Source of the DNA: Nitrospiria bacterium
GTDB lineage: Bacteria; Nitrospirota; Nitrospiria; SBBL01; JAADHI01
Direction: 5' to 3'
DNA: 64,000 nucleotides
Assembly: GCA_945787655.1 (NCBI GenBank)
Contig: CALZIJ010000002.1
Span: 6,697-70,696 of the forward strand
The notes under the pieces: generated by a model
Told to the model about the DNA's origin: nothing
Database searches by the model: none
The model's input: only the letters and a program-made list of their open reading frames with translations
In this document: positions 1,892 through 7,272 of the stretch, piece after piece
Layout of the letters: each line of letters starts with the position of its first letter
Position numbering within the stretch: the stretch's first letter is position 1
Position numbers and translations under genes: made by a program

Positions 1892-1926
1892 TTCATACTC
1901 CTTGATGACAGTTGTATTCTTAAAAA

Positions 1927-1964
1927 AAAGGCGCCTTGATGATATCATCAAGGCGCCTTTGCCT
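1927..1964 (-). promoter_or_regulatory. Leader hairpin/attenuator upstream of nirD
   Basis: Perfect 34-bp palindrome AAAGGCGCCTTGATGAT|ATCATCAAGGCGCCTTT (1927-1960), followed on the minus strand by an 8-T run; overlapping alternative hairpin AGGC-AAAGGC-GCCT (1951-1964). Confidence 0.6.
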
Positions 1965-2170
1965 AAAAAACATTTAAATTCGTTTCAACTCCTTGAATTT
2001 ATAGTAGCAAGTGTTATGCCTAAATTTCATTGCAAATAAATTACATTAAAATACTTGTATTTTCAATACGTTATGAGAAAAAAATGCACTCTAAATTTTA
2101 CCCTGCACCTCCAAAAGTACGACAAAAATGTGTGCTTCGCGACAATAACCGCAGAGATATTCTATACCTT

Positions 2171-4027
2171 TTAATGGTTATCCATTAAAACCCCTACTTG
2201 AGGCCGTTTGGCCAGGCCAGAGGTTCGGGCTAAATCTTCAAAGGAGTGATTTCCCCAAAAGAATCCGCGAGGCACCGTTGTTGGAACCACAGAGACATAA
2301 AAAAGGGCCCTGCCAACCAATTCGTGAATCAGCGTCATTAAAGAGAAAAATGTCCATAAAATGATCCCGCCAACCGTTGTTGGTGGAAAGACCATGAAGA
2401 CCACCACCACACCGATGAGGACTTTCCAGCTCATCAACCTGACCTGAAAGATTTTCCCGTGAGCCTCGGTCAACATCATGCGGGAAACCGCCGCCTCCTC
2501 ACCATATTGTTTTAAATCCCGGAGATGATAATAAAGCGCAATGCGTTGCAATACCAAACCTGCGGTCAGTATCAATGAAAGACCCTGTAATAATGGCCCA
2601 ATTGTTTGCCCCGCCGCCAGACCGGCGACCCCAAAAAACAGGCCCAATGTGCTGCTGCCTAAAATGAGCCCGCTCGCCACAAAGACCGCACCAGAATGCC
2701 AATGATCCCAGAAAGGGCGTGCGGGAATGCGATAGCATCGATACATCGCATAGATCCCCAACGGGCCAAAAATCGCCGCCACACCACCTGTCAATGTCGG
2801 CAGAGTATTTGCAAAAAAATCTGGAAGCCAGGAAAGAGTGACCGGGAAAATGGTCATTAAACCAAAGGCTGTTAATAAACTGTAAAACCCTCCCATCATG
2901 GCGATTTCCCGACTCACCCATGAATGGCGCAAGTTATTCATCGCACGATAAAAATACTGCGGTTTTCCCAAGTGTAAAGTGGAGAGGGCCAAGCCGAAGG
3001 TTTGGAGCACCACCAGGGTCAATAACATCAAACCCAGAGCCAGCGGATGATTTTCAAAAGAAAACAACTCGGCAGCCGATGTGTTCACATAGGGCATTAA
3101 AAACAACATTAAGAAGGCCCCCACGACAAATTGAGAGATTAAAGTGAATAAAACCAGAGGGTCTTCTCGGGAACGAAGCTTCTTCCATCCCATTCCCTCA
3201 GACGGCGGCGCTGTCTTCTCCTTAACTCTGTATTGATTTTTTTCTCCCTGATCAAAAGACTCTTTTACGGTTGATGGGCCTTTATCCTGCTCATAATCAA
3301 GCGGAACATCATCAAGCCGATGAAAGGTGTCCGGCATCTCCGTGTTTAACTGAAAGCGAATATTCGGGCGAGAAATCGACGGATCAGTAAATGACGGGAT
3401 GGTTAATTTGGCTTCCTGTTGCTTCTTGGGGATATCCTCAATCACACCAAAATCAAGTGCGTTTCCCAAACAGGCGTCCACACAGGCAGGTTGCAGTCCC
3501 ACTTCAAGCCGGTCGATACACATATTACATTTTTGTACCTGTCCTTTTTCGGTATCTAGTTGAGGCGCATTGTAAGGACACACCCAGGTGCAGTAACCAC
3601 AGCCAAAACAGATTTCAGGATCTTGCAAAACAGCACCGTATTCCAGATATTTGGTATAGGCCCGCGTGGGACAACCCTTTAAACAAACCGGGTCTTCGCA
3701 ATGATTACACGCCATCGAAATGTTTATTCGAGTGACATCAGGATAACATCCCCCTTCGATGCTCCCGACACGCCTGTAGGCCATGTGCGGCGCGAGATCA
3801 TTCTTTTCGGAACAAGCCGATTCACAGGCATGACATGCAATGCAATTACTCGCATTAAAATGAAAACCGTGCTGCTTGTAGCGATTGGGGTTTTCCCCAT
3901 TGCCCTGGTCATGAACCTGATCATTAATCACAAGAGGCGCATCCTTCAGTTTCGGATAAGCCTGATCAAGGGCAATGGGTGTGCCGTGCTTGCTGTTTAA
4001 AGGAAAAACGGTTTCCGTCTTATGCAT
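2171..4027 (-). CDS. Fused DmsB-like four-cluster ferredoxin and DmsC-like membrane anchor
   Basis: N-terminus with four 4Fe-4S Cys motifs (CIACHACESAC, CNHCEDPVCLKGC, CFGCGYCTWVC, CNMCIDRL..CVDAC); C-terminal half is multi-TM, DmsC-like. Confidence 0.8.
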   Translation of the reverse strand: MHKTETVFPLNSKHGTPIALDQAYPKLKDAPLVINDQVHDQGNGENPNRYKQHGFHFNASNCIACHACESACSEKNDLAPHMAYRRVGSIEGGCYPDVTRINISMACNHCEDPVCLKGCPTRAYTKYLEYGAVLQDPEICFGCGYCTWVCPYNAPQLDTEKGQVQKCNMCIDRLEVGLQPACVDACLGNALDFGVIEDIPKKQQEAKLTIPSFTDPSISRPNIRFQLNTEMPDTFHRLDDVPLDYEQDKGPSTVKESFDQGEKNQYRVKEKTAPPSEGMGWKKLRSREDPLVLFTLISQFVVGAFLMLFLMPYVNTSAAELFSFENHPLALGLMLLTLVVLQTFGLALSTLHLGKPQYFYRAMNNLRHSWVSREIAMMGGFYSLLTAFGLMTIFPVTLSWLPDFFANTLPTLTGGVAAIFGPLGIYAMYRCYRIPARPFWDHWHSGAVFVASGLILGSSTLGLFFGVAGLAAGQTIGPLLQGLSLILTAGLVLQRIALYYHLRDLKQYGEEAAVSRMMLTEAHGKIFQVRLMSWKVLIGVVVVFMVFPPTTVGGIILWTFFSLMTLIHELVGRALFYVSVVPTTVPRGFFWGNHSFEDLARTSGLAKRPQVGVLMDNH

Positions 4028-4040
4028 ATTGCATCCTTAT

Positions 4041-6221
4041 TTAGTATGTTCGTTCCGAGAGAATAGATTCAGCGGCAGTCTTCTGATCGACCACACGTTC
4101 AAGTCGGACAGCAGACTGTTTATAAGCGGGTTGTCGCGAATAGGGATCAAGCAGTCCCAAAACCAGGCGGTTCACGCAATTGTAATAGTGCATTGGAATA
4201 AAAATGGCATCCTCTGCGACACGTTCAGTCAGTTGCGCCAACACGAGGGCGCTGTCACGGCGTGAAACAACCCGGACAATTTCCATTGCCTGTATGCCTA
4301 ATCGCGCTGCAGTTCTGGGATTGATTTCCATGAATGGGGTCGGGCTGAATTTATTCAGGTTTCCAATTTTTCCGGTTTTGGTTCGCGTATGCCAATGTTC
4401 CACGAGCCGTCCGGTATTGAGCCAAAAGGGATAACTTTCATCCGGCACTTCATTATTATCAACAAAGGGAAGTGGAATCAGCTTGGCCTTCCCGTCTTCA
4501 AATTGAAACCGGCCATCGGCATAAAGACGCGGACTCCCTTGGGGCTGCGATGCGTTGCAAGGCCACTGAATCCCACGGGAAGCTTCGATCTTATCGTGAG
4601 TCATCCCCGAATAATCACACAACCGGCCTTTGGACGCCTCGCGAATTTCATCAAAAACAGCTTCGGGCGTTTCTGAAAAATGTATATTTTTGGCACGTTC
4701 AAACTGCTTTGCCAGTTGACTGAAAATCCAGAGATCCGTCTTCGCCTGTCCAGGAGGCTCAACCACTTTTCGAACGATGTTAACACGGCGCTCGGTATTG
4801 GTAAAAACCCCGGTTTTTTCCCCCCACAAGGCGGCAGGAAAATAAACGTGCGCGGACTCTGCGGTTTCAACATCGGCATACGCATCCTGCACGACCAAAA
4901 ATTCAAGTTGCTCCAGCAGTTTTCGAATCTTGGGGCTATTCGGCATCGAGGTCATGGGATTCGTGGCAATGAGCCACAGGCCTTTGATTTCACCCCGTTC
5001 AATGGCAGGGAAGATATCCGTTTCGGTCAAGCCTCTTTTTTCAGGAAAGTGTTGCGCATCCACACCCCAGAAATCTGCGGCGAAGGCCCTGTCTTCGGCA
5101 TTTTCTAAAAGGCGGTAACCCGGCAGACCGGAGCAGGAAGAGAATTCCCGTGTCCCCATGGCATTGCACTGTCCGGTAATTGAAAGAGAGGTGCCGCCCG
5201 GTTTTCCGATATTTCCGGTGATCAAGTTTAAATTGTTGATGGCCACAACACCGTCAGAGCCGTGCGTGGATTGATTGATCCCCATGGTCCAGATCGTCAT
5301 GGCGGCCCCGGCCTCGGCATAAATCCGCGCCACTTTACGGATCATCCTCGCTGAAATCCCGCAAATCGGTTCGGCCACTTCGGGACTGTATTGATCAACC
5401 AGTGCATTGAAGGCTTCAAACCCGTTCGTATGGGTTTGGATATAGTTTCGATCTTCGAGCCCTTCTTTTATAATCACATGGGCCATTGCGTTTAAAAGGA
5501 CAAGGTCCGTACCGGGAGTGATTGGCAAGTGAATATCTGCCAACTGTGCAAACATGGTAACGCGTGGATCAACCACAATAACCGGAAACTTCCTGCGGTC
5601 ATAGGCCTCTTTTAAACGATAATAAATAATCGGGTGCTGCTCTGGTAAATTGGAGCCAATCGCAAGTAAACACCCTGTGTGTTCAAAATCATCATAACAC
5701 CCTGGCGGACCGTCACTGCCGAATGAACGCTTATAGCCGGACACAGCGGATGCCATGCACAAGGTCGTATTGCCGTCGTAATTATTGGTGCCGATGACCG
5801 CCCGAACCAGTTTACCCAGGGTATAAAATTCTTCGGTATAAATCTGACCGGTCGATACAATGGCAAAACTGTCCCGGCCATAGATGGCTTGAACCCTTGA
5901 AATCTCCGAGGCCGTTTTTTTTAAAGCCTCATCCCAACTTGTTTCCTGAAACCCATCGGACCGGTCTTTTCTTAATAAAGGAACAACACCACGGTTCTTC
6001 GATTCAAACACTTCAAACTCATAAATCCCTTTCAGGCAGAGTTTCCCCCGGTTGACATCGGCAGTTTCCACGCCACGGGCGGTTACGGCTTTTCCGGCCT
6101 TGTTCACGCCGACCTCTATAGAACACCCCGTAGAACAATATCCACAGGTGGTGTAAACCCACTTTTCAACCGGTTTAACCGGCAATTGAATCGGGTTTTT
6201 ATGCAGACGTCCAAATAACAT
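4041..6221 (-). CDS. Cytoplasmic molybdopterin nitrate reductase (NasA/NarB-like)
   Basis: CGYCSTGC...CLKG 4Fe-4S motif, TLCMASAVSGYKRSFGSDGPPGCYDDFE (Nas-type, Cys Mo ligand), no Tat signal. Confidence 0.8.
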   Translation of the reverse strand: MLFGRLHKNPIQLPVKPVEKWVYTTCGYCSTGCSIEVGVNKAGKAVTARGVETADVNRGKLCLKGIYEFEVFESKNRGVVPLLRKDRSDGFQETSWDEALKKTASEISRVQAIYGRDSFAIVSTGQIYTEEFYTLGKLVRAVIGTNNYDGNTTLCMASAVSGYKRSFGSDGPPGCYDDFEHTGCLLAIGSNLPEQHPIIYYRLKEAYDRRKFPVIVVDPRVTMFAQLADIHLPITPGTDLVLLNAMAHVIIKEGLEDRNYIQTHTNGFEAFNALVDQYSPEVAEPICGISARMIRKVARIYAEAGAAMTIWTMGINQSTHGSDGVVAINNLNLITGNIGKPGGTSLSITGQCNAMGTREFSSCSGLPGYRLLENAEDRAFAADFWGVDAQHFPEKRGLTETDIFPAIERGEIKGLWLIATNPMTSMPNSPKIRKLLEQLEFLVVQDAYADVETAESAHVYFPAALWGEKTGVFTNTERRVNIVRKVVEPPGQAKTDLWIFSQLAKQFERAKNIHFSETPEAVFDEIREASKGRLCDYSGMTHDKIEASRGIQWPCNASQPQGSPRLYADGRFQFEDGKAKLIPLPFVDNNEVPDESYPFWLNTGRLVEHWHTRTKTGKIGNLNKFSPTPFMEINPRTAARLGIQAMEIVRVVSRRDSALVLAQLTERVAEDAIFIPMHYYNCVNRLVLGLLDPYSRQPAYKQSAVRLERVVDQKTAAESILSERTY

Positions 6222-6238
6222 TAATTTTTCCCATTAAA

Positions 6239-6299
6239 AAGGCGCATAGACCAAATCGGTCTAGGCGCCTTAGCCAAAAGAAACACTTCCTTGTGCTTC
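6239..6299 (-). promoter_or_regulatory. Leader of nasA-like gene with candidate dual-hairpin antitermination element plus terminator-like hairpin
   Basis: Minus strand: GAAGCAC-AAGGAA-GTGTTTC hairpin (6280-6299), TTTT, GGC-TAAGGC-GCC (6264-6275) overlapping AAGGCGCCTAGACC-GATTT-GGTCTATGCGCCTT-TTT (6239-6271). Confidence 0.55.
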
Positions 6300-6348
6300 G
6301 AAGAAGTCTAATAGTCTGAAACATGACGAAAAAGAACGGTTTCTTATT

Positions 6349-7272
6349 TCATATCCCTCTTTTCAACTGACTGATCTGTTCGATAATCTCTAAAAAATCT
6401 TGGGAGTCAATTGATTGTATAAATTTCACACCAAAAATATCCTGATGACCGGACATAAATGGCCTCCGGTATCGTATTATCCCAAAAAGTGTCATCTTAA
6501 TGGTTTGGAGACTGCCTTGAGACCGATGTGTTGACAACATGGGAAACTGTAGACAGATTATTTTTCCTGGCTGAGCCATATTCTCCCCCTTTTGCGGGAT
6601 GATGGCTGCACCGGAAACAGAGAGATCATGAAGGCGGCCGGGAATGTTTTTTTGGATAATACCCTCCATCACATCCTTCTCTTCATTAAAATGCGTTACA
6701 GGCGCAGCAGAGTCATCTTTTGACTTTGGTGATACTTGAACATCCGAACAAATGAATTCCTGAATATTTAATAAGCCCGGTTCCTTCTCCTGATCCACTC
6801 GGCGAACCATTTTAAGCTTGAATTGGCCTAACGCTTGGGTCACTTTATCTGAAAGCGTTGTCTGCAGTATCGGATCATCCAGATTCATGGGCCACCGTTT
6901 TTGTATCCTCGGATCAGCAAAGGCCAAGACCACTTTGGGGAACATGAGCTTTTTAACAAAACCCTGAATCACATATTTTCTGGATTCCCGGTACAAAACA
7001 AGAAGAATACGGTCATTAAACCCGACTTTGACTGAATCCGGTAATATAATGACAACCTGTGTTTCATCAGCACTGATAATTCGGGTTTGGCGAACCCGGC
7101 CTTCCGCCGTAATCAATTGGGCAATTTTTTCCTGACGTTCGTATTCTGCCAGGATACGTTTGCACAAATCCTGTTTTAAATTAACTTGATGGACAGATTC
7201 CTCATTCGTTTGAAGTAGTGCCCGGTCAATCGGAAGCTGGATCATTTTGTATCCAGGAGCTGTGCCTGTCAT
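6349..7272 (-). CDS. PilZ-domain (YcgR-like) protein
   Basis: DLSVSGAAI (D/NxSxxG) motif; RIQKR upstream may be the RxxxR motif. Confidence 0.6.
   Translation of the reverse strand: MTGTAPGYKMIQLPIDRALLQTNEESVHQVNLKQDLCKRILAEYERQEKIAQLITAEGRVRQTRIISADETQVVIILPDSVKVGFNDRILLVLYRESRKYVIQGFVKKLMFPKVVLAFADPRIQKRWPMNLDDPILQTTLSDKVTQALGQFKLKMVRRVDQEKEPGLLNIQEFICSDVQVSPKSKDDSAAPVTHFNEEKDVMEGIIQKNIPGRLHDLSVSGAAIIPQKGENMAQPGKIICLQFPMLSTHRSQGSLQTIKMTLFGIIRYRRPFMSGHQDIFGVKFIQSIDSQDFLEIIEQISQLKRGI

Follow-up and report, generated by a model that had tools for sequence, protein, structure and literature searches.

Attenuators controlled by ANTAR-domain proteins are the closest described relatives of the locus studied here. 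In Klebsiella oxytoca, the NIT-ANTAR protein NasR controls the nasF operon. Like our locus, this is a nitrate-assimilation operon whose leader carries two C-G-closed hexaloop hairpins, P1 and P2, with P2 overlapping an intrinsic terminator (PMC7496416, PMC3369931). The NasS-NasT system of Paracoccus and Bradyrhizobium, similarly to what we propose, uses ANTAR antitermination for nas and related genes; NasT and NasS together form a two-protein nitrate sensor (PMC3795266, PMC5424462, PMC6759348). The eut genes of Enterococcus faecalis, controlled by EutV, share the dual hexaloop and a P2 within the terminator arm (PMC3369931). In the eut system, linkers of 5-12 nt are suitable, and those of 3 and 14 nt are impairing (PMC3369931). 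In the EutV-RNA structure, the only base-specific contact is to G at loop position 4 (G4), and the minimal motif was redefined as one hexaloop (PMC8934654). A 2012 survey predicted ANTAR nitrogen regulons in Desulfotomaculum, Pelobacter and others. The elements precede PII, ammonium transporter, nitrite reductase, glutamine synthase and nitrogenase genes, and the main text does not name Nitrospira (PMC3369931).

We compared these systems with the leader of a nasA-like gene in the window, which is the whole 64,000-nucleotide stretch of DNA analysed. The window belongs to a 3.04-Mb Nitrospirota metagenome-assembled genome that is 98% complete. Searching with nasA led to order mates whose recorded names are Candidatus Troglogloeales and Candidatus Manganitrophaceae. 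The nasA-like gene (4041-6221, minus strand) encodes an assimilatory nitrate reductase of 726 aa, a molybdopterin oxidoreductase with Molybdopterin, Molydop_binding and Molybdop_Fe4S4 domains; NasC/Fdh-alpha family models score below their cut-offs on this protein. Three further genes lie on the same strand. The first encodes a fused DmsB-like 4Fe-4S and DmsC-like membrane anchor protein (2171-4027, 618 aa). The second is Rieske/NirD-like (1550-1891), and its likely start is ATG at 1891 (MEKSWRV), not TTG at 1951. The third, at 1-1494, encodes a NirB-like nitrite reductase large subunit of about 809 aa. It extends beyond the left end of the window, and the protein scores above the TIGR02374 cut-off (L171:5767-8190, minus strand).

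The nasA leader has a compact anatomy, read on the minus strand. P1 (6280-6299) is GAAGCAC-AAGGAA-GUGUUUC, with 7 bp, a C-G closing pair and a hexaloop with A at position 1 (A1) and G4. A UUUU linker (6276-6279) separates P1 from P2 (6264-6275), which is GGC-UAAGGC-GCC, with 3 bp, a C-G closing pair and a hexaloop with U1 and G4. The intrinsic terminator (6236-6271) has a 7+6 bp stem interrupted by a C/U mismatch, a GAUUU loop and a U-tract; the stem spans 6271-6239, the U-tract runs to 6236 and the nasA ATG is at 6221. The 3' half of P2 is part of the left arm of the terminator. Because P2 occupies this arm, P2 and the terminator are mutually exclusive. The minimum free energy and centroid folds of the leader RNA are both P1 plus the terminator (-29.6 kcal/mol, z = -4.9), and none of 200 shuffles matched this stability. 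The original prediction had described this sequence, its coordinates and geometry, a terminator stem ending 17 nt before the ATG, and a second hairpin that excludes the terminator. All of this agrees with the window sequence. It had also called U1 in the P2 loop a deviation; most P2 loops in the phylum begin with A or G.

Most features of the dual-hexaloop class are present. The two hairpins follow one another, each with a six-nucleotide loop closed by a C-G pair. Both loops (AAGGAA and UAAGGC) have G4, and the terminator is overlapped and excluded by P2. The linker is 4 nt when counted outside the 7-bp P1 stem, and is 2-9 nt in elements with a canonical P1. A1 is found in P1 only. As a strict member of the class, the leader misses this one defining feature, the A1 of the second loop; both eut loops keep it.

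The arrangement is conserved in orthologous leaders. P1, P2 and the terminator precede nasA in all four genus relatives examined (G001 = L034, G002 = L033, G003 = L032 and G004 = L035). Canonical P1 hexaloops are AAGGAC in G003, AAUGUC in G002 and AGCGUC in G004. In G001 the P1 loop is AAGGAU and only the apical 3 bp are intact. The P2 loops are UAAGGC or GAAGGC, except in G004. The G004 leader is degenerate, with a P2 loop (GAACUG) that lacks G4 and a weak terminator fold (z = -0.3). Further away, the leader of G006 keeps GGC-AAAGGC-GCC and has a longer terminator. No such element was seen when about 70 nasA orthologues of Pseudomonadota and other bacteria were examined. Hence, the leader is not a fixed companion that travels with nasA.

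Two covariance models were used. R1 was built from five genus leaders (the window and four relatives) and run over 58 relatives. R2 was built from 19 elements and run over 395 Nitrospirota genomes. Their E-values rest on short calibration. The window leader scores E = 1.1e-15 with R1 in its own genome; as a training sequence, this is only descriptive. The 19-element alignment was fitted to P1 and the terminator. Since the R1 and R2 structures omit the P2 pairs, P2 pairing was not imposed. Even so, P2 pairs are standard in 19/19 elements. For P1 and P2 together, 96% of pairs are standard, compared with 88% in shuffles and 31-62% in slid registers. Cells changed on both sides of a P1 or P2 pair number 16, against 4.5 +/- 1.6 in shuffles that ignore relatedness. 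Compensatory changes include G-C to A-U at the middle pair of P2 (5/19 elements) and C-G to U-A at the P1 pair that is third from the top (4/19). In four elements, the terminator partner of the column shared with P2 co-changes (C-G to U-A); the shared column is paired in both alternative folds. Across the phylum, position 1 of the P2 loop is A in 17, G in 18 and U in 2 of 37 loops. G4 is present in 35 of these 37, a count biased upwards by the choice of elements partly through P2.

Both models recovered further elements, mostly before nitrogen genes. Outside the training set, 14 of 15 R1 matches at E < 0.01 are directly 5' of such genes. One is a second, untrained copy in the window (1924-1978, minus strand; E = 2.9e-6), located before nirD-nirB. 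Its P2 (1952-1963) is GGC-AAAGGC-GCC, with A1 and G4, and has no canonical P1 upstream. Its terminator (1921-1959) is a 16-nt perfect inverted repeat (AAGGCGCCUUGAUGAU / AUCAUCAAGGCGCCUU) followed by a U-tract, and a sigma-54-type promoter core, GGCATAACACTTGC, lies at 2007-2020. R1 detects counterparts of this nirD element in G003 and G001. A third candidate in the same genome (L215, G000:C56:9194-9240; R2, E = 0.003) precedes nadE, encoding NAD synthase, and glnA. Its P2 is GAC-GAUGGC-GUC. Again there is no canonical P1, and a sigma-70-like TTGACA-N17-CATACT sequence lies upstream.

Beyond the genus, R1 placed the element before a molybdopterin-oxidoreductase-domain gene in G006, G007, G009, G011 and G012. 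In several genomes this gene is PII-fused or followed by genes for PII, a NarK-type MFS protein and NirB. The element precedes PII-PII-NarK-NirB in G005, and glnB-nifA or nifA in G031, G034, G036, G038 and G040. R2 added nadE-glnA, amtB-cluster and other copies, including two tandem attenuators before a 396-aa gene and ammonium transporters (G011:C11:632289-632362, L221). Downstream gene families were checked for representative loci (PII, NarK, NirB and NifA, and with R2 NadE, GlnA and AmtB). Some matches were left unused: those of R1 in the window's own genome at E > 1, and those in G055, G007 (C18), G002 (C95), G146, G179 and G082 (C7). They lie inside or adjoin genes that have no connection with nitrogen, and some fall within coding sequence. 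Separately, L178:3274-4377 encodes a molybdopterin-binding oxidoreductase domain fused to PII, and adjoins a second PII gene, NarK and NirB. Similar N-termini occur in L184, L185 and L180. This unusual fusion is probably nitrogen-regulated.

Promoter-like sites are found close to the elements. A sigma-54 core (GG-N10-GC) lies a few tens of nt 5' of the element in the nas and nirD copies of the relatives, and in most molybdopterin-oxidoreductase/PII copies. The glnB-nifA copies have sigma-70-like TTGAC..TATAAA upstream. The Klebsiella oxytoca nasF operon has a sigma-54 promoter, like the copies in the Nitrospirota relatives. The window's genome encodes rpoN. At the window nasA, the upstream region (6300-6349) lacks about 100 nt found in G003, the sigma-54 core included. 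In genus relatives, the segment absent here carries a core of the GGCAC-N7-TTGC type. Either a genuine deletion or an assembly error may account for its absence. The original prediction needed a transcription start upstream of 6299. Judged from their promoter-like sites, a start shortly 5' of P1 is probable in the relatives; transcription of the window nasA, which is without the sigma-54 promoter, may start there too. Short palindromes such as GACAAAAATGTC and TCGTCGGACTTCCGAC lie 5' of the sigma-54 cores in L032, L033, L035 and L066, at a considerable distance upstream of the nasA leader. These are possible activator sites.

A domain search of the genome identified exactly one ANTAR protein, an unequivocal match by sequence (86 bits, E = 3.6e-24). 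It is a 421-aa GAF-GAF-ANTAR protein encoded on contig C41, unlinked to the window or the nas locus, and only GAF, GAF and ANTAR exceed Pfam cut-offs. Residues R369 and K370 align to NasR R340 and K341 (PMC7496416). M399 aligns to EutV M172, a type of residue found in both proteins (PMC8934654). F391 aligns to NasR W362, a position usually occupied by F elsewhere. NasR R366 and N373 are Q395 and R402, the same letters as in Rv1626. The gene that follows looks like an oligoribonuclease gene. Domain searches of the genome detected no NIT-ANTAR and no receiver-ANTAR protein. Its sole NIT-domain protein is unrelated and PAS/GGDEF-like by sequence. It carries no ANTAR domain, and a NIT-type nitrate sensor acting via ANTAR was rejected for this genome. 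A NasT/NasR-like regulator encoded outside the window had been expected; its location held good, and its class did not, since the protein has two GAF domains and neither NIT nor receiver. Membership of the NasR or NasT system fails on the regulator. NasR has a NIT domain, NasT works with NasS and EutV takes its input through a receiver. Compared with nasF/NasR, the Nitrospirota P2 loops also have U, A or G at position 1, and the range of targets is broader, with glnA, PII, nifA and amtB. Several attenuators per regulon are a trait common to eut/EutV, which differs in pathway and phylum (PMC3369931).

Presence of the RNA and of the ANTAR gene is correlated across the phylum. An ANTAR gene occurs in 28 of 34 RNA-positive genomes, compared with 151 of 395 overall (Fisher p = 5e-8, ignoring relatedness). 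With training genomes excluded, the figure is 18 of 24 (p = 9e-5, again ignoring relatedness). All 12 genomes with RNA matches at E < 1e-6 have an ANTAR gene. As a rule, genomes of the class carry a single ANTAR gene. In G031, G034 and G038, the ANTAR domain and the element are on one contig, 1.9 to 4.6 kb apart, and in G390 the element begins 77 nt after the ANTAR domain. In order mates G008 and G010, nasA is present and neither ANTAR gene nor element was found.

We are confident that nasA is preceded by an ANTAR-type transcription attenuator, probably opened by the genome's single GAF-GAF-ANTAR protein when active. The original ANTAR-type dual-hairpin reading is thus well supported by conserved pairing, the ANTAR gene and phylum-wide RNA-protein co-occurrence. 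At the level of sequence, its footing also includes leader anatomy, exclusion between folds and recurrence of the element. The leader would work like the nasF/NasR and eut/EutV attenuators. With the regulator inactive, nascent RNA would form P1 and then the terminator, and transcription would end before nasA. An active GAF-GAF-ANTAR dimer is predicted to bind the P1 and P2 hexaloops. P2 would then be held, the terminator left arm occupied, and polymerase would read into nasA. That control is positive is suggested by analogy with EutV and NasR (PMC3369931, PMC7496416). The GAF domains, or a partner, would sense the signal, either nitrogen status or nitrate/nitrite. The same protein probably also controls the nirD-nirB attenuator and the nadE-glnA attenuator (C56).

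Several observations count against the ANTAR reading. U1 in P2 does so because position 1 matters for EutV binding (PMC3369931). P2 has just 3 bp in nasA leaders, the G004 loop and terminator are degenerate, the ANTAR gene is unlinked and the window nasA is without the sigma-54 promoter. Furthermore, many Nitrospira-lineage genomes (family f6) have one ANTAR gene, of GAF-GAF-ANTAR size, and no R1 or R2 match. Either their targets are divergent or the ANTAR protein has another role there. A minimal motif of one hexaloop contacted at G4 fits both the relaxed P2 position 1 and the P1-less nirD and nadE-glnA elements.

Within the ANTAR reading, one version specifies the signal as nitrate/nitrite, sensed via the GAF domains or a partner. 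The original prediction had likewise proposed nitrate/nitrite control. Targets that include nasA, nirD-nirB and narK agree with this, and nitrate is the signal for known nas attenuators (PMC7496416, PMC3795266). Set against it, nadE-glnA, PII, amtB and nifA are also targets, for which general nitrogen status is the better fit, and the NIT-ANTAR and receiver-ANTAR classes are missing from the genome. Hence, general nitrogen status is no less likely a signal than nitrate/nitrite, and we regard the nitrate/nitrite version as rather unlikely.

Control by something other than an ANTAR protein is improbable. Another RNA-binding antiterminator, a riboswitch ligand or translation-coupled attenuation could act on the leader, and six of the RNA-positive genomes have no detected ANTAR gene. 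Of these six, two are incomplete (64-70%) and three more have weak matches (E > 1e-3). No Rfam family matched the window at threshold; permissive sub-threshold matches at the nasA leader were chance matches and were discarded. Moreover, the C-G-closed hexaloops with G4 in both hairpins match the NasR SELEX motif and the EutV motif (PMC7496416, PMC3369931).

Least plausible, and already largely refuted by conservation, is that the element is just the terminator of the upstream PilZ-like gene with P1 and P2 incidental: that gene is co-directional, with its stop at 6349, about 50 nt before P1, and the terminator forms an inverted repeat on the opposite strand too, weakly detected by the model, but G003 keeps the P1-P2-terminator unit behind a different upstream gene that ends 285 nt from nasA, the P2 5' GGC/GAC is outside the terminator yet co-varies with it, and copies precede functionally related genes of other families.

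Returning to the ANTAR attenuator, the nitrogen theme is known, because the 2012 survey had already tied ANTAR targets to nitrogen genes outside this phylum (PMC3369931). Unlike those regulons, the Nitrospirota elements include P1-less ones and are tied to GAF-GAF-ANTAR. The open papers retrieved on GAF-ANTAR, and on ANTAR in Nitrospira or Leptospirillum, do not describe these targets. Three things appear undescribed in that literature, namely the regulon in Nitrospirota, its GAF-GAF regulator and the single-hexaloop variants that lack P1, where GAF-GAF-ANTAR appears to be a class without known RNA targets. More tentatively, and at somewhat less than even chances, we propose a phylum-wide Nitrospirota nitrogen regulon under a one-component GAF-GAF-ANTAR antiterminator, which would reach nirD-nirB and nadE-glnA via P1-less single-hexaloop attenuators. 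If true, these attenuators would agree with the minimal motif proposed from the EutV-RNA structure (PMC8934654), and the regulon would take in relatives of manganese oxidisers.

ANTAR target RNAs have been reported mainly from firmicutes, proteobacteria and actinobacteria. The present elements would add a phylum with few genetic tools. With usually one GAF-GAF-ANTAR protein per genome, this is a clean system of one protein and few targets. It could reveal the signal for GAF-ANTAR proteins, and show whether position 1 of the loop is needed and whether one hexaloop suffices. For the organisms themselves, the finding points to nitrogen control after transcription initiation in relatives of nitrite-oxidising and manganese-oxidising bacteria.
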